A stretch of DNA of 64,000 nt from Allostella vacuolata (GTDB taxonomy: Bacteria; Pseudomonadota; Alphaproteobacteria; ATCC43930; Allostellaceae). Under the pieces are notes generated by a model. That model was not told the origin of the DNA. It made no database searches and worked only from the letters and a program-made list of their open reading frames with translations. The DNA lies in assembly GCA_006739055.1 (NCBI GenBank), contig AP019702.1, positions 5,667,388-5,731,387 of the forward strand. Direction: 5' to 3'. Every line of letters starts with the position of its first letter. The stretch's first letter is position 1. The position numbers and the translations under genes were made by a program. Positions 16,050 to 27,516 of the stretch are shown piece after piece.

Positions 16050-16101
16050 TATTGTTGCTTTCGATTGCGTGCCGCAGCGCGCGGCTCCTAAAGTCGCCGC
16101 C

Positions 16102-17001
16102 ATGTGCGGAATTGTCGGACTGTTCCTGAAGAACGAGGCGCTGCGGCCGGACCTGGGCCGGCTGCTGGCGCGCATGCTGGTGGAGATGGGCGATCGCGGG
16201 CCGGACAGCGCCGGCTTCGCCGTCTATCGCCGCCCCGCGCCGGAGGGCTCGGTCAAGATCACCCTCTTCCATCCGGACCCGGCCCATGACTGGGCGGCGC
16301 TGGCCGCTGCCTTCGCGCGGTCGATCGACCGCCCGGCGGCGGCCGAGCCGCGCGGCAACCACGCGGTGCTGACCGTCTCGGCGGAAGAGGGGCCGGCGCG
16401 CGCCTGGCTGGCTGCCCACCACCCCGAGGTACGGGTGATGGGCTTCGGCCGGCGCATCGAGGTGTTCAAGGACATGGGCGGCCCGGACGAGGTCGCGCGC
16501 CGCTTCGACCTGGCCGGCATGGACGGGACCCATGCGCTCGGCCACACCCGCATGGCGACCGAGAGCGCGGTCACCACCGAGCACTCCCACCCGTTCGCGG
16601 TCGGGTCCGAGCTGTGCCTCGTCCATAACGGCTCGCTGTCCAATCACAACCGCCTGCGCCGCAACCTCGCCCGCGCCGGCATCCGCTTCGGCACCGACAA
16701 CGACAGCGAGGTCGCGGCCGGCTACTTCGCCCATCGGCTGCAGCAGGGCGATTCCCTGGCCGATGCGATGCGCGCCGGGCTCGACGACCTCGACGGCTTC
16801 TACACCTTCGCCGTCGGCACCCGGGACGGCTTCGCCGTGCTGCGCGACCCGGTGGCCTGCAAGCCGGCGATCCTGGCCGAGACCGACGACTGGGTCGCCA
16901 TGGGGTCGGAATGGAAGGCGATCGCGCCCTTGCCCGGTTCCGCCCGCGCCCGGGTGTGGGAGCCGGAGCCGGCCACCGTCTATGCCTGGGGGCGCGCGTG
17001 A
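16102..17001 (+). CDS. glxB: Class II glutamine amidotransferase, GlxB/MgsA type
   Basis: A 299-residue stand-alone Ntn-type glutaminase domain. The start was set at 16102 because the enzyme family needs Cys2 as the N-terminal nucleophile (MCGIVGLF). The frame is open 11 codons upstream but that would bury the cysteine. Other active-site motifs: 'GHTRMATESAVTTEHSHPF' and 'LVHNGSLSNHN'. The domain corresponds to the N-terminal part of glutamate synthase GltB. As a separate subunit next to glxC and glxD it forms the GlxBCD / N-methylglutamate synthase (MgsABC) complex, where it would release ammonia from glutamine or handle gamma-glutamyl amides. It overlaps glxC by four bases. Confidence 0.88.
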   Translation: MCGIVGLFLKNEALRPDLGRLLARMLVEMGDRGPDSAGFAVYRRPAPEGSVKITLFHPDPAHDWAALAAAFARSIDRPAAAEPRGNHAVLTVSAEEGPARAWLAAHHPEVRVMGFGRRIEVFKDMGGPDEVARRFDLAGMDGTHALGHTRMATESAVTTEHSHPFAVGSELCLVHNGSLSNHNRLRRNLARAGIRFGTDNDSEVAAGYFAHRLQQGDSLADAMRAGLDDLDGFYTFAVGTRDGFAVLRDPVACKPAILAETDDWVAMGSEWKAIAPLPGSARARVWEPEPATVYAWGRA

Positions 17002-17681
17002 TCACGGTCGACCTTGAGCTCGCGACGGTCCGCGAGCTGAACCAGCGCCTGCACGACCTGCCGCCCGACACCAACGAGCGCGCCTGGACGATCGTCAACC
17101 CGGGCGGGCGGCACGCGCTGCTGGCCGGCCTGACCCGGCCGGTCTCGATCACCGTCGAGGGGCATGTCGGCTACTACTGCGCGGGGATGAACGAGGCGGC
17201 CGAGATCGTCATCGACGGCCATGCCGGCGTCGGCGTGGCCGAGAACATCATGTCCGGCACCGTCCGGGTGCGCGGCAACGCCTCCCAGGCGGCCGGGGCC
17301 TCCGGCCATGGCGGCCTGCTCGTCATCGAGGGCGATGCCAGCGCGCGCTGCGGCATCTCGATGAAGGGGGTCGACATCGTGGTCGGCGGCTCGGTCGGGC
17401 ACATGAGCGCCTTCATGGCCCAGGCGGGGCGGCTGGTCGTCTGCGGCGATGCCGGCGGCGACCTCGGCGATTCGCTGTACGAGGCGGTGATCTACGTCCA
17501 GGGCCGCGTCACCAGCCTGGGTGCCGACTGCGAGGAACAGCCGATGGCCGACGCCGACCGCGCGGCGGTGGCGGACCTGCTGGCCCGGACGGGCATCCCG
17601 GGCGATCCGGCGCGCTTCCGGCGCTACGGCTCCGCCCGCCGGCTCTACCACTTCCACGTCGACCACGCCGACGCCTATTGA
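16998..17681 (+). CDS. glxC: GXGXG-motif protein, GlxC/MgsB type (GltB C-terminal beta-helix domain)
   Basis: A 227-residue protein made largely of a right-handed beta-helix with repeating G-x-x-G-x-x-x-G turns (for instance 'VRVRGNASQAAGASGHGG' and 'DIVVGGSVGHMSAFMAQAG'). It corresponds to the C-terminal structural domain of glutamate synthase, separated as its own gene as in glxC/mgsB. The start is GTG at 16998, overlapping the glxB stop (GTGA); a longer open frame upstream lies inside glxB. It is likely the middle subunit of the three-part synthase. Confidence 0.88.
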   Translation: MITVDLELATVRELNQRLHDLPPDTNERAWTIVNPGGRHALLAGLTRPVSITVEGHVGYYCAGMNEAAEIVIDGHAGVGVAENIMSGTVRVRGNASQAAGASGHGGLLVIEGDASARCGISMKGVDIVVGGSVGHMSAFMAQAGRLVVCGDAGGDLGDSLYEAVIYVQGRVTSLGADCEEQPMADADRAAVADLLARTGIPGDPARFRRYGSARRLYHFHVDHADAY

Positions 17682-17692
17682 GGCCATAGAGA

Positions 17693-19003
17693 ATGGACGG
17701 CCATCCCCCCCTTCGCCGCTCCGCGTCCTTCCCGCCGGAGACGATCCACGAGATCCAGCGGGCCGCGGCCGAGGGCATCTACGAGATCCGCGGCTTCGGC
17801 GCCAAGCGGCGGCTGCCGAGCTTCGATGACCTGGTCCTGCTCGGCGCCTCCATCTCCCGCTACCCGCTCGAGGGCTATCGCGAGAAGTGCGCGACCGACG
17901 TCGTCATCGGTGCCCGCTTCGCCAAGAAGCCGCTGCATCTCAAGATCCCCATCACCATCGCCGGCATGAGCTTCGGCGCGCTCTCCGCCACCGCCAAGAC
18001 CGCGCTCGGCCGGGCGGCCACCGCCATGGGCACGACCACCACGACCGGCGATGGCGGCATGACCGACGAGGAGCGCGAGGCGTCGAGCCTGCTCGTCTAC
18101 CAGGTGCTGCCGTCGCGCTATGGCCTCAACCCGCGCGACCTGCGCCGGGCCGACGCGATCGAGGTGGTGGTCGGCCAGGGCGCCAAGCCCGGCGGCGGCG
18201 GCATGCTGCTCGGCCAGAAGATCACCGAGCGGGTCGCCGGCATGCGCGTGCTGCCGGCGGGCATCGACCAGCGCAGCGCCTGCCGCCATCCCGACTGGAC
18301 CGGCCCGGACGACCTGGCGATCAAGATCCAGGAGCTGCGCGAGATCACCGACTGGCAGAAGCCGATCTATGTGAAGGTGGCGGCCGCCCGCCCGCGCTAC
18401 GACGTGCAGCTCTCGGTCAAGTCGGGCGCCGACGCGATCGTGCTCGACGGGATGCAGGGCGGCACCGGCGCCACCCAGGACGTGTTCATCGAGCATGTCG
18501 GCATCCCGACCCTGCCGGCGCTGCGCGAGGCGGTCGAGGCCCTGCAGGAGCTGGACATGCACCGCAAGGTGCCGCTGATCATCTCGGGCGGCATCCGCTC
18601 CGGCGCCGACGTCGCCAAGGCCCTGGCGATGGGGGCGGACGCGGTCTCGATCGGCACCGCGGCCCTGATCGCGCTGGACTGCAACCGGCCGATCCATGTC
18701 GCCGACTATGCCGCGCTCGGCACGGCGCCCGGGGCCTGCCACCATTGCCAGACCGGCCGCTGCCCGGTCGGCATCGCCACCCAGGATCCGGCGCTGGAGG
18801 CGCGCCTCGACGTGGATGCGGCCGCGCGCCGGGTCCGCAATTACCTGTCGACGATGGTGCTGGAGGCGCAGACCCTGGCCCGGGCGTGCGGCAAGTCGCA
18901 TCTCCACAACCTGGAGCCGGAGGATCTGGCGGCCCTGACCATGGAGGCCGCGGCCATGGCCGGCGTGCCCCTGGCCGGAACGGGCTGGATTCCGGGAAGA
19001 TAG
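17693..19003 (+). CDS. glxD: FMN-binding glutamate-synthase-like protein, GlxD/MgsC type
   Basis: A 436-residue protein equal to the central FMN/[3Fe-4S] synthase domain of GltB. The flavin barrel shows 'KIPITIAGMSFGALSATAKTALGRAA', 'PGGGGMLLGQKI', 'DGMQGGTGATQDVFIEH' and 'IISGGIRSGADVAKALAMGADAVSIGTA'. The iron-sulfur ligands are Cys349, Cys352 and Cys357 in CHHCQTGRCPVG. With glxB and glxC it makes a complete three-gene synthase. In methylotrophs the equivalent MgsABC turns glutamate plus methylamine (or gamma-glutamylmethylamide) into N-methylglutamate. The start at 17693 is 11 bp after the glxC stop. A sigma-54-like promoter sits between it and glnT. Confidence 0.9.
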   Translation: MDGHPPLRRSASFPPETIHEIQRAAAEGIYEIRGFGAKRRLPSFDDLVLLGASISRYPLEGYREKCATDVVIGARFAKKPLHLKIPITIAGMSFGALSATAKTALGRAATAMGTTTTTGDGGMTDEEREASSLLVYQVLPSRYGLNPRDLRRADAIEVVVGQGAKPGGGGMLLGQKITERVAGMRVLPAGIDQRSACRHPDWTGPDDLAIKIQELREITDWQKPIYVKVAAARPRYDVQLSVKSGADAIVLDGMQGGTGATQDVFIEHVGIPTLPALREAVEALQELDMHRKVPLIISGGIRSGADVAKALAMGADAVSIGTAALIALDCNRPIHVADYAALGTAPGACHHCQTGRCPVGIATQDPALEARLDVDAAARRVRNYLSTMVLEAQTLARACGKSHLHNLEPEDLAALTMEAAAMAGVPLAGTGWIPGR

Positions 19004-19013
19004 GGCGGCCGGC

Positions 19014-19029
19014 TGGCACGGCGGTCGCA
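19014..19029 (+). promoter_or_regulatory. Candidate sigma-54 (-24/-12) promoter for glnT/gmaS
   Basis: The sequence TGGCACGGCGGTCGCA matches TGGCACG-N4-TTGCW at every defined position but one (C for T at the 13th). The essential GG (-24) and GC (-12) are present at correct spacing. Transcription would begin near 19041, about 17 bp before the ATG at 19058. Sigma-54 with NtrC is the classic control of glutamine synthetase genes. Confidence 0.55.
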
Positions 19030-19057
19030 TCGGCGGGCGGGACAAGAGGGGGACGGG

Positions 19058-20395
19058 ATGGCCAGGACTGCGGCGGCGAAGGCGGAGAAGACCAGCGACC
19101 TGGCGGCGATCGCCCGCGAGCGCGGCATTGCCTATTTCCTGATCGCCTATGTCGATCTCTTCGGCGCCACCCGGGCCAAGCTGGTGCCGGCCTCGGCGAT
19201 CGGCGGGATGCAGAAGGCGGGCGCGGGCTTTGCCGGTTTCGCCACCCACCTCGACCTGTCGCCGGCCGATGCCGACATGTTCGCCGTGCCGGACCCGGCC
19301 AGCCTGACGGTCCTGCCCTGGAAGAAGGAGGTGGCCTGGCTGGCGGCCGACCTGTGGATGGGCGGCGCCCCGGTGCCGCAGGCCCCTCGCGTCATCCTGA
19401 AGCGCCTGATCGCCGAGGCGGCGGCCAAGGGCTGGCGCATGCGCACCGGCGTCGAGTGCGAGTTCTTCCTGCTGTCGCCGGACGGCAAGGCGATCGGCGA
19501 TGCCGGCGACGTCGCCGACAAGCCCTGCTACGACCAGCAGGCGCTGATGCGCCGCTTCGACATCATCCGGGCGATCTGCGACGGCATGGCCGAGCTCGGC
19601 TGGGGCCCGTACCAGAACGACCACGAGGACGCGAACGGCCAGTTCGAGATGAACTGGGAGTATGACGACGCGCTGGTCACCGCCGACCGGCACGTCTTCT
19701 TCAAGTTCATGGCGCGATCGATCGCCGAGGCCCACGGCGCCCGCGCCACCTTCATGCCCAAGCCCTTCCCGCACCTGACCGGGTCGGGCTGTCATGCCCA
19801 TGTCTCCCTGTGGGATGGCGCCGGCCGCAAGAACCTGTTCGAGGACGCCGACGGCGAACTCGGCCTGTCGCCGCTGGCCTACCAGTTCCTGGGCGGCGTC
19901 CTGCAGCATGCGGGCGACCTGTGCGCCCTCTTCGCCCCGACGGTGAACAGCTACAAGCGCCTCAACGCGCCGAACACCCGGTCGGGCGCCACCTGGGCGC
20001 CCAACACCATCACCTATGGCGGCAACAACCGCACCCACATGGTCCGCATCCCGGAGGCGGGCCGCTTCGAGCTGCGGCTGATGGACGCGGCCGTCAATCC
20101 CTACCTGGGCCAGGCGGCGATCCTGGCCGCGGGGCTGGACGGCATCGCCGCCGGCCGCGACCCGGGCAAGCGTCTCGACATCGACATGTACCGCGACGGC
20201 CACAAGGTGAAGGGCGCCAAGCGGCTGCCGCTCTACCTGCTCGACGCCATCCGCCTGTTCGAGAAGAGCGGCTTCACCCGCGCCGCCTTCGGCGCCGACG
20301 TCGTCGCCAGCTACGCGAAGCTCAAGATGGCGGAATGGGACGACTTCTCCCGCACCCTGTCCGAATGGGAGCGGCGGAACACGCTCGACGCCTGA
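19058..20395 (+). CDS. glnT: Type III glutamine synthetase family enzyme (GlnT / gamma-glutamylmethylamide synthetase GmaS)
   Basis: A 445-residue ATP-dependent glutamate-amine ligase. Glutamine-synthetase active-site motifs are present: GVECEFFL at 131-138 (metal glutamates), 'EDANGQFEMNW' near 190-200, 'GSGCHAHVSLWD' and 'GNNRTHMVRIPEAGRFELRL'. The sequence and length fit the GlnT/GmaS group rather than the 470-residue GlnA, and the adenylylation tyrosine loop of GlnA is not apparent. GmaS joins methylamine to glutamate, giving gamma-glutamylmethylamide for the Mgs synthase; GlnT makes glutamine. The glxBCD genes directly upstream favour the GmaS reading. Two sigma-54-like sites flank the gene. 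Confidence 0.88.
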   Translation: MARTAAAKAEKTSDLAAIARERGIAYFLIAYVDLFGATRAKLVPASAIGGMQKAGAGFAGFATHLDLSPADADMFAVPDPASLTVLPWKKEVAWLAADLWMGGAPVPQAPRVILKRLIAEAAAKGWRMRTGVECEFFLLSPDGKAIGDAGDVADKPCYDQQALMRRFDIIRAICDGMAELGWGPYQNDHEDANGQFEMNWEYDDALVTADRHVFFKFMARSIAEAHGARATFMPKPFPHLTGSGCHAHVSLWDGAGRKNLFEDADGELGLSPLAYQFLGGVLQHAGDLCALFAPTVNSYKRLNAPNTRSGATWAPNTITYGGNNRTHMVRIPEAGRFELRLMDAAVNPYLGQAAILAAGLDGIAAGRDPGKRLDIDMYRDGHKVKGAKRLPLYLLDAIRLFEKSGFTRAAFGADVVASYAKLKMAEWDDFSRTLSEWERRNTLDA

Positions 20396-20422
20396 GCCGC
20401 CGATCCGCCCGCCCACTTTGCC

Positions 20423-20438
20423 TGGCGCGCCGATTGCT
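20423..20438 (+). promoter_or_regulatory. Candidate sigma-54 (-24/-12) promoter for the dioxygenase-ABC operon
   Basis: TGGCGCGCCGATTGCT differs from TGGCACG-N4-TTGCW only at the fifth position (G for A) and keeps the invariant GG and GC at the right spacing. Transcription would start near 20450, leaving an 80-base leader before the dioxygenase ATG at 20531. The 135-bp gap is the longest within this plus-strand block. Confidence 0.55.
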
Positions 20439-20530
20439 TCATTCCGTCGCGCGGATTGCCGATGACAGCCGGTGCGGGGCGTGATTGACTCCGCCGCGGT
20501 TGCGCCTGGGCGCATTCGGAGGTGCGAGCG

Positions 20531-21601
20531 ATGGCAGTTGCGGCACGGCAAACGATTTCCGGACCCGTGGCTTGGTACGGCAAGGATCTCGAGGCATCGA
20601 ACGGCTGGGTTCGCCGGCTGAGCGATGATCAGATGGCGACGATCGAGGCGGCGCTGGCCGCGGTCGACCGCGCGGGCATCCCGACGCTGGCCATCCGGCG
20701 GGAGGATTTCCCGCTGCCCGGGTTCGAGCCCTTCATCGCGGACCTGCAGCAGGAACTGGAGACCGGCTATGGCGCCGTCCGGGTCTCCGGCCTGCCGGTT
20801 GCCCGCTACTCGCTCGACGACATGCGCCGGATCTTCTGGGGCTTCGGCACCCACATGGGCACCGCCGTCCACCAGAATGCCCGCGGCGAGCTGATCGGCG
20901 AGGTCCGTGACGAGTCGGGCGATGCCGAGCCGACCTATGTCGTACCCGTCGCCGGCCGGGTGAAGTCGAGCCGGGCGCGCGCCCGCTCGAACGGGCCGTT
21001 GCGCTTCCACACCGACCGCTGCGACGTGATCGCGCTGTTGTGTGCGCAGAACAGCATGGCGGGCGGCGTCAGCAAGCTCGCCAGCATCGCCACCATCTAC
21101 AACGAGATGCTGCGGCGGCGCCCCGATCTGCTGGACGTCCTGTTCCAGGATTTCTATCGCTCGCGGCCCGAGGACGAGGACGGGCTGCATCCGCAGCCCT
21201 GGTTCAAGCTGCCGGTGTTCGGGATGGTTGACGGCTGGCTGACCAGCCAGTACTCGCGCACCTATGTCGAGCAGGCCCAGGAATTCCCCGACGTCCCCCG
21301 GGTCACGCCCGAACAGGTTGCGGCGATGGACATGCTGGCCGAACTGGCGGAGGAGAACTGCCTCTACGCCCCCTTCGTCGAGGGCGACATGCAGTTCCTC
21401 AACAACCACGTCATCTACCACGGCCGCACCGCCTACGAGGACGACCCGACCGCGGGCCGGACCCGGCGCCTGATGCGGCTGTGGTTCTCCATGCCGAACA
21501 ACCGCCCCCTGCCTCCCGGTTTCGAGGTGCTGTGGGGTTCGACCGCCCCCAACTCGCTGCGCGGCGGCGTCGCCGTCCAGCGCGTCTCCGCCGCCGCCTG
21601 A
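20531..21601 (+). CDS. TauD/TfdA-family Fe(II)/2-oxoglutarate-dependent dioxygenase
   Basis: A 356-residue member of the TauD/TfdA/gamma-butyrobetaine-hydroxylase superfamily. The iron triad is visible: His160 and Asp162 in FHTDRCD, and His297 in NNHVIYHGRTAY. An arginine-rich 'RTRRLMRLWFSMP' follows for 2-oxoglutarate binding. Such enzymes hydroxylate a substrate at a carbon next to N, S or O, often releasing the hetero group (taurine to sulfite, methylated amines to amine plus aldehyde). The ATG at 20531 was chosen for the GGAGG 8 bp upstream. It is followed after 22 bp by an importer operon, so its substrate is probably what that importer brings in. The true substrate is unknown. Confidence 0.85.
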   Translation: MAVAARQTISGPVAWYGKDLEASNGWVRRLSDDQMATIEAALAAVDRAGIPTLAIRREDFPLPGFEPFIADLQQELETGYGAVRVSGLPVARYSLDDMRRIFWGFGTHMGTAVHQNARGELIGEVRDESGDAEPTYVVPVAGRVKSSRARARSNGPLRFHTDRCDVIALLCAQNSMAGGVSKLASIATIYNEMLRRRPDLLDVLFQDFYRSRPEDEDGLHPQPWFKLPVFGMVDGWLTSQYSRTYVEQAQEFPDVPRVTPEQVAAMDMLAELAEENCLYAPFVEGDMQFLNNHVIYHGRTAYEDDPTAGRTRRLMRLWFSMPNNRPLPPGFEVLWGSTAPNSLRGGVAVQRVSAAA

Positions 21602-21623: not shown

Positions 21624-22676
21624 ATGGCTCCGATCAGCCGTTCCGCCCTGTTGCGCGCCGTCGCCGGCGCCGCTCTGTCCGTTGCCGTGGCCGGCGGAGC
21701 GGTTGCCCAGGGCGCCAGCAAGACCGTCTACTTCCTGACCTGGGGCGGCACCGTCCAGCAGACGCTCGAGAAGGAGGGCTGGGGCAAGAAGTTCACCGAG
21801 GCGACCGGATACACCGTCCAGCTGGTGCCGAAGGCGACCGGGCCGGAGATCATCGCGGCCGCCGTCGCTCAGAAGGACAAGCCGCAGGTCGACGTGGTGC
21901 AGAGCGACCTGCTGCCCTTCCTGGCCGGCAACGACCAGGGCATCTTCGTTCCGCTCGACCAGAAGGACATCCCCAACATCGCCAAGCTGGCCCCGGTCGC
22001 GCGCATCAACGCCAACGCGATCATGACGTATGGCGACGTCATGTCGATCATCTACAACCACGAGGTCTTCGCCCAGAAGAAGTGGGTCGAGCCCAAGGCC
22101 GACTGGGCGGAGCTGATGCGGCCGGAGTTCCGCGGCAGCCTCGTGCTGCCGCCGGTCAACACCACCTACGGCCTCTATGTGCTGATCACGCTGGCGCGCG
22201 TCCATGGCGGCAGCGAGCACCAGATCGGCCCGGGCATGGAGGCGCTGAAGAAGCTGGCGCCCGGCATCGTCGAATGGCCGACCACCTTCGCGCGCATGGG
22301 CCAGTTCCTGCAGGACGGCTCGGCGGCGGTCGGCTTCTACAGTTCGTCCTCGGCGGCCGAGATGGCCAAGCGCGGCATCCCGGTCAAGTACGTCGTGCCG
22401 AAGCCGCTGTTCTTCACGGGCACCGCCGCCGGTATCATGAAGAATGCGCCGAACCCGGAAGGTGCCAAGGCGTTCCTGAACTGGTGGCTGTCCAAGGAAG
22501 TCATGAGCTTCCGTGCCGAGCGCTACGGCAACGTGACCATGAACACCGAGGTCACCAACAACCCGATCCCGGTCTCCGCCCTCAACGAGATGCAGCGGAT
22601 CGACTACGCCCATGTGAACGCCAGCCGTGCCGAATGGATCAAGGTGTTCGAGCGCGAAGTCCTGCCGCTGAAATAG
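21624..22676 (+). CDS. ABC transporter extracellular binding protein, spermidine/putrescine (PotD/PotF) type
   Basis: A 350-residue secreted binding protein. The signal peptide is residues 1 to about 28 (MAPISRSALLRAVAGAALS...VAQ). The mature protein starts with the typical 'SKTVYFLTWGGTVQQTLEKEGW' of type-2 binding proteins for polyamines and related compounds. The motifs 'VDVVQSDLLPFLAGNDQGIFVPLD' and 'YGNVTMNTEVTNNPIPV' fit the same class. The next three genes encode the matching ATPase and two permeases in pot order. Ligands of this subfamily include putrescine, spermidine and other cationic nitrogen compounds. Confidence 0.9.
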   Translation: MAPISRSALLRAVAGAALSVAVAGGAVAQGASKTVYFLTWGGTVQQTLEKEGWGKKFTEATGYTVQLVPKATGPEIIAAAVAQKDKPQVDVVQSDLLPFLAGNDQGIFVPLDQKDIPNIAKLAPVARINANAIMTYGDVMSIIYNHEVFAQKKWVEPKADWAELMRPEFRGSLVLPPVNTTYGLYVLITLARVHGGSEHQIGPGMEALKKLAPGIVEWPTTFARMGQFLQDGSAAVGFYSSSSAAEMAKRGIPVKYVVPKPLFFTGTAAGIMKNAPNPEGAKAFLNWWLSKEVMSFRAERYGNVTMNTEVTNNPIPVSALNEMQRIDYAHVNASRAEWIKVFEREVLPLK

Positions 22677-22694: not shown

Positions 22695-23795
22695 GTGGTG
22701 GCTACGGCTCCTGCGGGCCTGGAGGCCTCGTCGCTCGTCAAGCGCTTCGGCGGGACGGCGGCGGTGGACGGGATCGACGTCTCGGTCCGGCCGGGTGAAT
22801 TCTTCACCGTGCTGGGCCCCTCCGGCTGCGGCAAGACGACCTTCCTGCGCCTCGTCGCCGGGATCCTGACGCCGGACTCGGGGCGGATCGCGATCGGCGG
22901 GGCCGATGTCAGCCAGGCCCCGATCTGGGCCCGTCGCATCGGCCTCGTGTTCCAGAACTATGCGCTCTTTCCGCACATGACGGTGGCCCAGAACGTCGCC
23001 TTCGGCCTTGCCATGCGCCGCGTGCCGCGGGCCGAGCGCGGGCCGAGGGTGGAGCGCGCGCTCGCCACCGTCCGGCTGGAGGGCTATGGCCGTCGCAAGC
23101 CCTCGGAACTGTCCGGCGGCCAGCAGCAGCGCGTGGCACTCGCCCGGGCCATCGTCGTCGAACCCGACCTGCTGCTGCTCGACGAGCCGCTGTCCAACCT
23201 CGATGCACGGCTGCGCGAGGACATGCGCAGCGAACTGGCGGACCTGCAGCACCGCCTCGGCATCACCACCGTGCTGGTGACGCACGACATCCACGAGGCC
23301 TTCTCCCTGTCCGACCGGGTCGCGGTGATGCGCGCCGGTCGCGTCGAGCAGGTGGGGGCGCCGACCGAGATCTATGATCGTCCGGCCAATCGCTTCGTTG
23401 CGGGCTTCCTCGGCCCCGTCAACGAATGGACCGGGCAGGTGCAGCGCGTGCAGGGCGGCGTGGCGGAGATCATGCTGGACGGCCTGCGGACCTGCCGCGT
23501 GGCGGCACTTCCGGGATCGGCGGCCGGGGACGCCGCGACCGTGGTCCTGCGCCCCGAGCGGCTGGCGCTTGCCCCCGCCCTCGCCACGCCTGCCCCTACC
23601 ATGTCGGCGGCCGGTGCGCTGGCCGGCCGGATCGATCAGGTCGCCCATCTCGGCAACCTCGTGAACTACCGAATCGCCCTCGACGGCCGGATGCTGCTGG
23701 CACAGGCCCTGCCGGAGCGGTCGGGGGCTCTGGCCGTGGGGACTCCGGTCCGCCTGTCGTGGGACGACGCCGACCTGGCGGCGGTCGCTCCATGA
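22695..23795 (+). CDS. ABC transporter ATP-binding protein, PotA/PotG type
   Basis: A 366-residue importer ATPase: Walker A GPSGCGKT at 41-48, signature LSGGQQQR near 138, Walker B LLLLDEP, then a C-terminal TOBE domain from about residue 245. It starts with GTG (22695; a second GTG at 22698 is equally possible), and only a weak GGA-type ribosome-binding site precedes it. It lies 18 bp after the binding-protein gene and 10 bp before the first permease. Confidence 0.92.
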   Translation: MVATAPAGLEASSLVKRFGGTAAVDGIDVSVRPGEFFTVLGPSGCGKTTFLRLVAGILTPDSGRIAIGGADVSQAPIWARRIGLVFQNYALFPHMTVAQNVAFGLAMRRVPRAERGPRVERALATVRLEGYGRRKPSELSGGQQQRVALARAIVVEPDLLLLDEPLSNLDARLREDMRSELADLQHRLGITTVLVTHDIHEAFSLSDRVAVMRAGRVEQVGAPTEIYDRPANRFVAGFLGPVNEWTGQVQRVQGGVAEIMLDGLRTCRVAALPGSAAGDAATVVLRPERLALAPALATPAPTMSAAGALAGRIDQVAHLGNLVNYRIALDGRMLLAQALPERSGALAVGTPVRLSWDDADLAAVAP

Positions 23796-23805
23796 CCATC
23801 CCTCC

Positions 23806-24693
23806 ATGACGGGTGCCGCGGCCGGCCGGGCCGCGCTCGGCGTGCGGCTCGGCGGCGGGGTCTGGATCTTCCTGGGCCCCGCGCTGCTGCTGATGCTGGC
23901 CGTCTACCTGGCGCCGCTGATCGACACCGCGGTCATCAGCCTGCACCCGAACACGCCGGCCGGCATCGACCGCAGCCACTGGACGACCGCCAACTTCCTG
24001 CGGCTGGTCGACACCTACTACTGGGGGGTGCTGGTGCGCACGCTGCGGGTCAGCATAATCATCACCCTGCTGTCGGTCCTGCTCGCCTACCCCGTTGCCG
24101 TGTGGCTGGCGGGGCTCGGCCCGCGCGGGCAGACCTGGGCCATCCTGGTCTACATGTCGCCCTGGTTCGTGAACGCAGTGGTGAAGTCCTTCGGCTGGAC
24201 GCTCATCCTCGGCAACAACGGCCTGGTGAACAACGGCCTGCGGGCGCTGGGCCTGATCGATACACCGCTGCGCCTGATGCTGAACGAGACCGGGATCGTC
24301 ATCGGCCTGCTGCCGGGGCATTTCCTCTTCGTGCTGCTGCCGTTGTGGGCAGCGCTGAAGGGGCTGGACGGCAACCTGCGCTGGGCGGCGATGACGCTGG
24401 GCGCCCGGCCGTGGCAGGTCTTCCTGCGCGTCACGGTGCCGCTCACCCTGCCGGCGCTGCTGGCGGGCGCCATCATCAACTTCACCATGAACATGGCGGC
24501 CTTCGCCGCCCCGGCGCTGCTGGGCGGCACGCGGACGCGCGTGCTGTCCTTCATCGCCTATCAGGTCAACCTGGAAGAGCTGAACTGGCCGTTCGGCGGT
24601 GCGCTGGCGGTCGCCATGCTGGTGGTGACGCTGGGCTTCGTCATGCTGGCCCAGGGCATCACCGCGCGGGGGCTGGCGGGCCCGCGGCGATGA
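23806..24693 (+). CDS. ABC transporter permease, PotB/PotH type
   Basis: A 295-residue inner-membrane permease with six helices, the first at about residues 18-40 (WIFLGPALLLMLAVYLAPLI). The EAA loop 'LRWAAMTLGARPWQVFLRVTVPLTLPAL' lies in the C-terminal half. It overlaps the next permease gene by four bases (ATGA). Together they form the channel of the polyamine-type importer. Confidence 0.92.
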   Translation: MTGAAAGRAALGVRLGGGVWIFLGPALLLMLAVYLAPLIDTAVISLHPNTPAGIDRSHWTTANFLRLVDTYYWGVLVRTLRVSIIITLLSVLLAYPVAVWLAGLGPRGQTWAILVYMSPWFVNAVVKSFGWTLILGNNGLVNNGLRALGLIDTPLRLMLNETGIVIGLLPGHFLFVLLPLWAALKGLDGNLRWAAMTLGARPWQVFLRVTVPLTLPALLAGAIINFTMNMAAFAAPALLGGTRTRVLSFIAYQVNLEELNWPFGGALAVAMLVVTLGFVMLAQGITARGLAGPRR

Positions 24694-25466
24694 AGCGGAC
24701 GCTCACCTTCTTCAACCTGCTGATGATCGTCTATGTCGTGGCGCCGATCATCCTGGTGGTGTGGATGTCCTTCACCCCCAGCATGCGCTTCGAGGTGCCG
24801 ATCGCCAGCTTCTCGCTGCGCTGGTACCAGGAGCTGTTCTCCTACGACGCCTTCATCGACAGCGCCTGGCTCAGCCTGCGCCTCGGCCTGCTGTCGGCGC
24901 TGATCGCGACGGCGCTGGGCTTCCTGGCCGCCTATGGGCTGGTGCGCGGCCGGCCCCCCGGCTCGGCCGTGCTGCTCGGCCTCTTCACCGCGCCGCTGAT
25001 CGTGCCGGCCGTCGTCTACGGCATCGCCATGCTGCAGTTCACCAACCTGGTGGGCCTCTACGGCGCGTTCCCGGCACTGCTGGCCGCCCACGTGGTGATC
25101 GTCCTGCCCTTTGCCGTGCGCACGCTGCTGGCCGCGCTCGAAGGCCAGGGGCCGGAGCTGGAATGGGCCGCGATGAGCCTCGGCGCGCGCCGCCGCCACG
25201 CGGTGCTGCTCGTCACCTTGCCGCTATGCCTGCGCGGCATGGTCTCGGCCTTCCTGTTCTGCTTCCTGATCTCGTTCTCCGAGGTCACGGTCACGCTGTT
25301 CATGGCCGGCCCCGCCCACCAGACCCTGCCGGTGCGGATCTTCAACTATGTCAGCGACCGCATCGACCCGACCATGGCCGCCGTCTCGGCCCTGATCGTC
25401 CTGGTGTCGGTCGCCCTGGTCCTGGTGCTCAACCGCCTGGGCGCGCTCGGCACCGTGCGGAAGTAA
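24690..25466 (+). CDS. ABC transporter permease, PotC/PotI type
   Basis: A 258-residue permease. The start is fixed by MKRTLTFFNLLMIVYVVAPI and the four-base overlap with the previous gene; the much longer open frame upstream lies inside the first permease. The EAA loop is 'LEWAAMSLGARRRHAVLLVTLPLC'. It ends the long plus-strand block. Its stop is 40 bp from the convergent rhodanese gene, with a GC-rich inverted repeat (25467-25473 / 25491-25497) just after the stop. Confidence 0.92.
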   Translation: MKRTLTFFNLLMIVYVVAPIILVVWMSFTPSMRFEVPIASFSLRWYQELFSYDAFIDSAWLSLRLGLLSALIATALGFLAAYGLVRGRPPGSAVLLGLFTAPLIVPAVVYGIAMLQFTNLVGLYGAFPALLAAHVVIVLPFAVRTLLAALEGQGPELEWAAMSLGARRRHAVLLVTLPLCLRGMVSAFLFCFLISFSEVTVTLFMAGPAHQTLPVRIFNYVSDRIDPTMAAVSALIVLVSVALVLVLNRLGALGTVRK

Positions 25467-25984: not shown

Positions 25985-27400
25985 TCAGGGCACGGTCTCA
26001 CCATGCAGCCGGAGGTCGAGACCATCGCGCTCCATCTCCTCGTCGACACGGAGCCCCACCAACACATCGACGATCTTCAGGAGCACGAAGGAGGCGATCG
26101 CACACCACACGATGGTAACGAGAACGCCGACGATCTGGGCGATGACCTGGCCGCCATTGCCTTCGACCAGGCCGCTGACGCCGGCGACCACGGCACCGTC
26201 CGCGCCGGTCGTGGCGCTCATCGCGCCCACCGCGAAGACACCGGTCAGGATGGCGCCGACGATGCCGCCCATGCCGTGGATGCCGAACACGTCGAGCGCG
26301 TCGTCATAGCCCAGCGCGTGCTTCAGCCCGGTGCAGGCCCAGAAGCAGACCACGCCGGAGACCAGCCCGATGATCAGGCCGCCGGTCGGGGTGACGAAGC
26401 CGCAGGCCGGCGTGATCGCGACCAGGCCGGCGACGGCGCCGGAGATGATGCCGAGGATGCTGGGCTTGCCCTTGGTCAGCCACTCCGCGAACATCCAGGA
26501 CAGGCCGGCGGCGGCCGTGGCGATATGGGTCACCGCCATCACCATGCCGGCGCGCTCGCCCGCGGCCAGTGCCGAACCGGCATTGAACCCGAACCAGCCC
26601 ACCCACAGCAGCGACGCGCCGATCACCGACAGCGCCAGGTTGTGCGGCGGGAAGGGGTCCCGGCCGTAGCCGCGGCGCTTGCCGATCACCAGGGCCGCGA
26701 CCAGGCCGGCGATGCCGGAATTGATGTGCACCACCGTGCCGCCGGCGAAGTCGAGCACCGCGCCGGCGCCGAACGGGCCGGGATAGTCGGTCAGGCCGGT
26801 TCCGCCCAGGAAGCCGCCCGGTCCCCAGACCATGTGCGCCACCGGCGAGTAGACCACGATCGACCACAGGCCGCTGAACAGCAGCATGGCCGAGAACTTC
26901 ATGCGGTCGGCGACGGCACCGACGATGAGCGCCGGGGTGATGGCCGCGAAGGACAGCTGGAACATGAAGAACACGGTCTCGGGAATGGTCCCCGACAGCG
27001 TGCCCATTTCCACCCCGCCCATGAACATCTTGGACAGGCTGCCGACGAAGGCCGTGCCCTCGGCAAAGGCGATCGAATAGCCGATCACGAACCAGATCAG
27101 GCTGATGAGGCACATGCAGGCAAAGGACTGCATGAGCGTCGCCAGCACGTTCATCTTGCGGACCATGCCTGCGTAGAACAGCGCCAGGCCGGGGATGAGC
27201 ATCATCAGGACGAGCACCGTCGACGTCAGCATCCAGGCGGTATCGCCGGAATTCAGTGTCGGCGCGGTCTGGGCGAGCGCCGGGTCGGCGACGACAGCGG
27301 CAGCCGCGCCGGCGAGTGCCGGTATGAGCGCGGTCCGCGCACCGGGGCGCCGCTGCGCCGCCAGTTCGGCAGAAGTCTTGTGGTTGTTCGGCGACGTCAT
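25985..27400 (-). CDS. amt: Ammonium transporter (Amt/AmtB)
   Basis: A 471-residue ammonium channel. After a 40-residue N-terminal stretch ending in a signal-like hydrophobic run (ALIPALAGAAAAVVADPALAQ), about eleven membrane helices follow. Family motifs are clear: 'GDTAWMLTSTVLVLMM' at the start of the core, 'DFAGGTVVHINSG', 'WVGWFGFNAGSA' and 'DALDVFGIHGMGG'. The start at 27400 was chosen for the AGGAGAGGG 7 bp upstream; a longer open frame exists. A sigma-54-type promoter 100 bp upstream indicates induction under nitrogen limitation. The usual partner glnK (PII) is not adjacent, although glnD, the PII-modifying enzyme, is in the same window. Confidence 0.95.
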   Translation of the reverse strand: MTSPNNHKTSAELAAQRRPGARTALIPALAGAAAAVVADPALAQTAPTLNSGDTAWMLTSTVLVLMMLIPGLALFYAGMVRKMNVLATLMQSFACMCLISLIWFVIGYSIAFAEGTAFVGSLSKMFMGGVEMGTLSGTIPETVFFMFQLSFAAITPALIVGAVADRMKFSAMLLFSGLWSIVVYSPVAHMVWGPGGFLGGTGLTDYPGPFGAGAVLDFAGGTVVHINSGIAGLVAALVIGKRRGYGRDPFPPHNLALSVIGASLLWVGWFGFNAGSALAAGERAGMVMAVTHIATAAAGLSWMFAEWLTKGKPSILGIISGAVAGLVAITPACGFVTPTGGLIIGLVSGVVCFWACTGLKHALGYDDALDVFGIHGMGGIVGAILTGVFAVGAMSATTGADGAVVAGVSGLVEGNGGQVIAQIVGVLVTIVWCAIASFVLLKIVDVLVGLRVDEEMERDGLDLRLHGETVP

Positions 27401-27500: not shown

Positions 27501-27516
27501 TCCAAAATTCGTGCCA
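27501..27516 (-). promoter_or_regulatory. Sigma-54 (-24/-12) promoter of amt
   Basis: On the minus strand the sequence is TGGCACGAATTTTGGA, identical to TGGCACG-N4-TTGCW except G for C at position 15. The full -24 element is intact and the spacing exact. Transcription would start near 27490, giving a leader of about 90 bases to the amt ATG. Confidence 0.65.

Follow-up and report, generated by a model that had tools for sequence, protein, structure and literature searches.

A probable sigma-54 promoter before a TauD-fold dioxygenase and ABC importer operon in Stella (Allostella) vacuolata

A 16-bp sequence at positions 20423–20438 of the analysed DNA is interpreted here as the RpoN (sigma-54) promoter of a nitrogen-scavenging operon that encodes a TauD-fold dioxygenase and an ABC importer; a probability of about 0.75 is given to this reading as a whole. 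As proposed, RpoN-RNA polymerase would form a closed complex at the site, to be opened under nitrogen shortage by an AAA+ activator, for which NtrC is the most likely candidate. The resulting transcript, from near position 20449, would carry the dioxygenase gene and the four importer genes. The operon would probably import and oxidise a nitrogen-containing organic compound, as a member of a nitrogen-scavenging RpoN regulon. The parts of this reading differ in strength. That the site is a real RpoN promoter from which transcription starts appears highly probable. Nitrogen control of the operon is plausible, and a nitrogen-containing substrate is somewhat favoured, while NtrC as the direct activator would be put at about even odds.

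Stella is a genus of star-shaped Alphaproteobacteria, for which three complete genomes have been described (PMC6687932); it has been renamed Allostella (PMC12488387). The window is the whole stretch of DNA that was analysed, 64,000 nt in length, and the genome that contains it (G000) is a single contig of 5.83 Mb. Three relatives of the same genus, G001–G003, were used for comparison; G003 is a fragmented assembly. Features of the window are listed in Table 1.

Table 1. Features of the window near the dioxygenase operon, with positions, strand and basis of assignment.
Feature	Position	Strand	Basis
Second sigma-54-like site, TGGCACGGCGGTCGCA	19014..19029	+	29 bp before the gmaS-like gene; kept in two sister genomes
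Type III glutamine synthetase, gmaS-like	19058..20395	+	closest solved relative 7cql, 643 bits
Probable sigma-54 (-24/-12) promoter site of the dioxygenase operon, TGGCGCGCCGATTGCT	20423..20438	+	motif, genome-wide location, weight matrix, partial conservation
Leader element, ATGAC-N11-GGCRTGRTTGACT	20462..20490	+	intact once per genome in four Stella genomes, only at the dioxygenase operon
TauD-fold (PF02668) Fe/2OG dioxygenase-like, first gene of the operon	20531..21601	+	family and structure matches
ABC importer solute-binding protein, 2-aminoethylphosphonate/polyamine type	21624..22676	+	nearest family models
ABC importer ATPase, PotA/PhnT2-like	22695..23795	+	nearest family models
ABC importer permease 1, PotB-like	23806..24693	+	nearest family models
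ABC importer permease 2	24690..25466	+	reading frame open from 24690
Ammonium transporter, amtB	25985..27400	-	family matches
Sigma-54-like site before amtB, TGGCACGAATTTTGGA	27501..27516	-	kept in two sister genomes (G001, G003)

The location and spacing of the motif are as the earlier note had described them. The sequence TGGCGCGCCGATTGCT has GG at 20424–20425 and GC at 20436–20437, an exact GG-N10-GC arrangement, and lies in the 135-bp gap (20396–20530) between the stop codon of the gmaS-like gene and the ATG of the dioxygenase gene, upstream of which GGAGG is present. The RpoN consensus is quoted in PMC4999443, from Barrios et al. 1999, as TGGCACG-N4-TTGCW. The site is close to this consensus, with 11 of the 12 specified bases in agreement and a sole mismatch, A to G, at position 5; the figure of 15 of 16 given earlier counted the four Ns as matches. 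By the -24/-12 geometry, the transcription start would be expected near 20449, 12 bases past the GC. A scan of positions 20300–20700, of a type that suits GC-rich alphaproteobacterial promoters poorly, yielded no sigma-70-type promoter and no terminator, and the predicted folding of the leader RNA was no more stable than that of shuffled sequences.

The number of matches to the consensus is uninformative, because shuffled or reversed patterns give equally many. With two or fewer mismatches, the window has 8 matches versus 9.6 expected from shuffles; with one mismatch or fewer, the whole genome has 26 matches to the true pattern versus 33 to the reversed consensus, which served as control. Location relative to genes is decisive instead. 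Genes around every match were called by codon usage, with nine window genes as the training set, and the control for location was run on G000. Twenty of the 26 true-pattern matches are intergenic and aimed at a downstream gene (19 within 221 bp, one at 471 bp), versus 4 intergenic matches among the 33 reversed ones, and no reversed match has a gene ahead of it within 300 bp (p about 8e-11 or 6e-7 in Fisher tests, for two ways of counting). At the same threshold, gene-directed upstream matches within 500 bp make up 21 of 34 in G001 and 20 of 31 in G002. When position 5 is left free, the 5.83-Mb genome has just two exact matches, each of them in an intergenic region ahead of a gene. A large number of equally good matches at random coding positions had been named earlier as an outcome that would speak against a promoter; the distribution found speaks for one. 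As RpoN is encoded in the genome and sites of this kind show a strong concentration ahead of genes, the claim of a sigma-54 promoter before the dioxygenase-importer operon is supported.

Ranking by an RpoN weight matrix, also suggested earlier, was carried out on the 64-kb window. The matrix covers 16 positions and was trained on 52 distinct sites excluding the one at 20423; its scores flatter sites with one mismatch or fewer, because matches of this kind were used in training. The highest scores are those of the amtB site at 27501 on the minus strand (16.9 bits) and the gmaS-like site at 19014 (16.0 bits), followed by the 20423 site (15.3 bits), and the next-best site of the window is 3 bits lower (12.0 bits). 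The amtB and gmaS-like sites belonged to the training set, so that only the third rank is independent.

Among the genes behind the RpoN sites of G000 are glnB and amtB, as well as genes for a urea-type solute-binding protein, for two enzymes resembling glutamine synthetase, for an amidase and a copper amine oxidase, and for importers of amino acids and peptides. In the relatives the set also includes hydantoinase-like genes (judged by sequence alone), and glnB has an identical site, TGGCACGGCTCCTGCT, before it in each of the four genomes. For a few targets, a role in nitrogen metabolism is not evident. By its predicted functions, the make-up of this gene set is that of a nitrogen-scavenging RpoN regulon. 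As a separate observation, a conserved RpoN-like site lies 22–23 bp before a translation GTPase gene (TypA/BipA-like by sequence; loci L194 and L254), an unexpected target.

The genome encodes one RpoN gene and four sigma-54 activators with a full interaction domain, all of which have receiver domains: NtrC, NtrX and two further response regulators (the gene order at locus L218 is dusB-like, ntrB, ntrC, ntrY, ntrX). A TGCC(T/C)A-N5-TAGGCA dyad is found 57–143 bp before the sites of amtB, glnB, urtA and one peptide-importer gene. The glnB and amtB dyads agree with the GC-N11-GC layout that PMC8443478 reports for NtrC sites of P. stutzeri. The amtB dyad, 57 bp upstream of its site, is well kept in G000 and G001 and scores well above background; those of glnB and urtA score near or above it. 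Single dyads that agree at 9–10 of 12 positions are not rare by chance, since roughly one of every eight random stretches of 400 bp reaches 9, and recurrence at orthologous places is a better argument than the score of a single dyad. Upstream of the dioxygenase site, no NtrC-like dyad is present within 400 bp, the best match being at background level. The dyad is absent before most other RpoN sites too. When the regions upstream of all sites were searched together for an NtrC dyad or any other that they share, nothing exceeded shuffles, apart from the dyad recognised by eye at glnB, amtB and urtA. Nitrogen control, as proposed in the earlier note, thus gains from the co-regulated set and from the gmaS-like and amtB neighbours, but not from an NtrC-type enhancer. 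Since a binding site near the promoter was not found, control of the operon by NtrC is inferred from the company that it keeps.

With four full-domain activators encoded, and with NtrC-like dyads only before the four genes named above and not before the dioxygenase gene, the sigma-54 promoter could be real and yet be activated by NtrX or by one of the two further response regulators, in response to a signal other than general nitrogen status. This is considered unlikely: most of the RpoN-site genes have nitrogen functions, many of them likewise without a recognisable dyad, and the operon itself is flanked by the gmaS-like gene and amtB. The gmaS-like gene is preceded by a trio of glutamate-synthase-like genes (16069–20395 in all), an arrangement that we take to resemble the N-methylglutamate (methylamine) module. 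The -12 element of the amtB site reads GG instead of GC (TTGGA instead of TTGCA).

The orthologous site in G001 is identical at all 16 bases, though the adjacent upstream flank is different and contains indels. In G002 the site, CGGCCCGAAGATTGCT, is weaker (8.7 versus 15.3 bits); its -24 half is degraded, and GG and GC are retained. In G003 the operon and the amtB site are found on one contig, but there is no RpoN site before the operon and the gmaS-like cluster is not adjacent. Within the genus, RpoN control of the operon therefore does not extend to every species, and the operon is a separable unit.

This last point bears on the view that the operon is transcribed mainly by read-through from the gmaS-like gene, with the site at 19014 as the real control point. 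The two genes are on the same strand, no terminator was recognised in the 135-bp gap between them, and the site before gmaS is kept in three species. However, a second good site lies within that gap, and G003 has the operon without gmaS next to it, so that this view appears improbable.

Downstream of the expected start, the leader element at 20462–20490 is common to all four species. It reads as ATG, 8 codons and TGA, without indels, and may thus represent either a mini-ORF or an operator. That the 20423 match is a chance or decayed one, and that the operon depends instead on a promoter of the housekeeping type or on a local regulator acting at this element, might be argued from the presence of the element in G003, which has no RpoN site, and from the degraded -24 half in G002; it has little probability, given that the control density (33 on two strands of 5.83 Mb) predicts a match with one mismatch or fewer, on one strand, in only about 4 of 10,000 gaps of 135 bp and that intergenic matches of this quality are overwhelmingly gene-directed genome-wide.

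The promoter type is ordinary; the new detail is that in Stella it recurs in front of TauD-fold dioxygenase genes. Three groups of TauD-fold paralogues in Stella carry RpoN-like sites, that of the dioxygenase operon included. In one further group the conserved sites TGGCACGACATTCGCA, TGGCATGATGTTCGCA and TGGCACGCCCTTCGCA lie 58–78 bp before the called starts in three genomes (L020, L018, L023), and in the other, TGGCATACCGTGTGCA, TGGCATACCATGTGCA and TGGCATACCCTGTGCG, likewise conserved, lie 60–124 bp before the called starts, also in three genomes (L029, L025, L026). A tentative suggestion is that the Stella TauD-fold dioxygenases form a recurrent nitrogen-scavenging arm, with paralogues that are separately under RpoN and that oxidatively release nitrogen from imported compounds. 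If so, the operon described here would be the case with a dedicated importer and with a gmaS-type methylamine-assimilation module alongside.

The dioxygenase-importer unit is also present in an Acetobacteraceae assembly (L049). Before 80 homologous loci outside Stella, no excess of RpoN-like sites was found, save for two Variovorax loci, and the pairing of the dioxygenase with RpoN thus looks lineage-specific. In the two Variovorax loci (L097 and L111), a strong RpoN-like sequence, TGGAACGCTTCTTGCT, lies about 226–239 bp before a dioxygenase homologue of 43–44% identity.

The dioxygenase was compared with family models. It is TauD-like, as the earlier note termed it, in the sense of membership in PF02668; only this broad family was matched, and no NCBIfam taurine-dioxygenase model was, so that TauD proper was rejected as its identity. 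The nearest models for the importer are of the polyamine and 2-aminoethylphosphonate types, all under the cut-off. "Polyamine" can therefore be kept as a nearest-family label and not as a substrate assignment, since no substrate model reaches the cut-off. Nitrogen control had also been called an unusual pairing for this enzyme family, sulfur limitation being expected. This was overstated: the expectation rests on the family name and does not follow for an enzyme that is not a true TauD and whose closest relatives are 7n7v and FrbJ. In the literature searched, no report was found of TauD-type dioxygenases under RpoN or NtrC.

The proposed promoter would add an oxygen-dependent enzyme-importer operon to the nitrogen-type RpoN regulon. 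It may also provide a substrate handle for an uncharacterised TauD-fold family, directing the search towards nitrogen compounds instead of sulfonates. In addition, the plain RpoN consensus appears specific enough, in a genus of high G+C content, for much of the regulon to be read from sequence.

Three known systems can be compared with the Stella operon. It shares with the RpoN/NtrC nitrogen-scavenging regulon the -24/-12 motif, its spacing, the classes of target genes, and the presence of RpoN and NtrBC; it differs in what this member encodes, a TauD-fold dioxygenase accompanied by a dedicated importer, and in the lack of a recognisable NtrC-type dyad nearby. By sequence similarity, the closest solved relatives of the dioxygenase are 7n7v (a "predicted hydroxylase", 189 bits) and FrbJ (5eqn, 119 bits). 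FrbJ belongs to the biosynthesis of a phosphonate antibiotic, whereas the Stella protein is encoded in an importer operon. The likeness to tauABCD consists of a PF02668 dioxygenase beside an ABC importer. The Stella operon differs from tauABCD in having no match to a taurine-dioxygenase model and an importer of the polyamine/2-aminoethylphosphonate type. Finally, tauABCD is under sulfur-starvation control, whereas the Stella operon carries an RpoN-type site.
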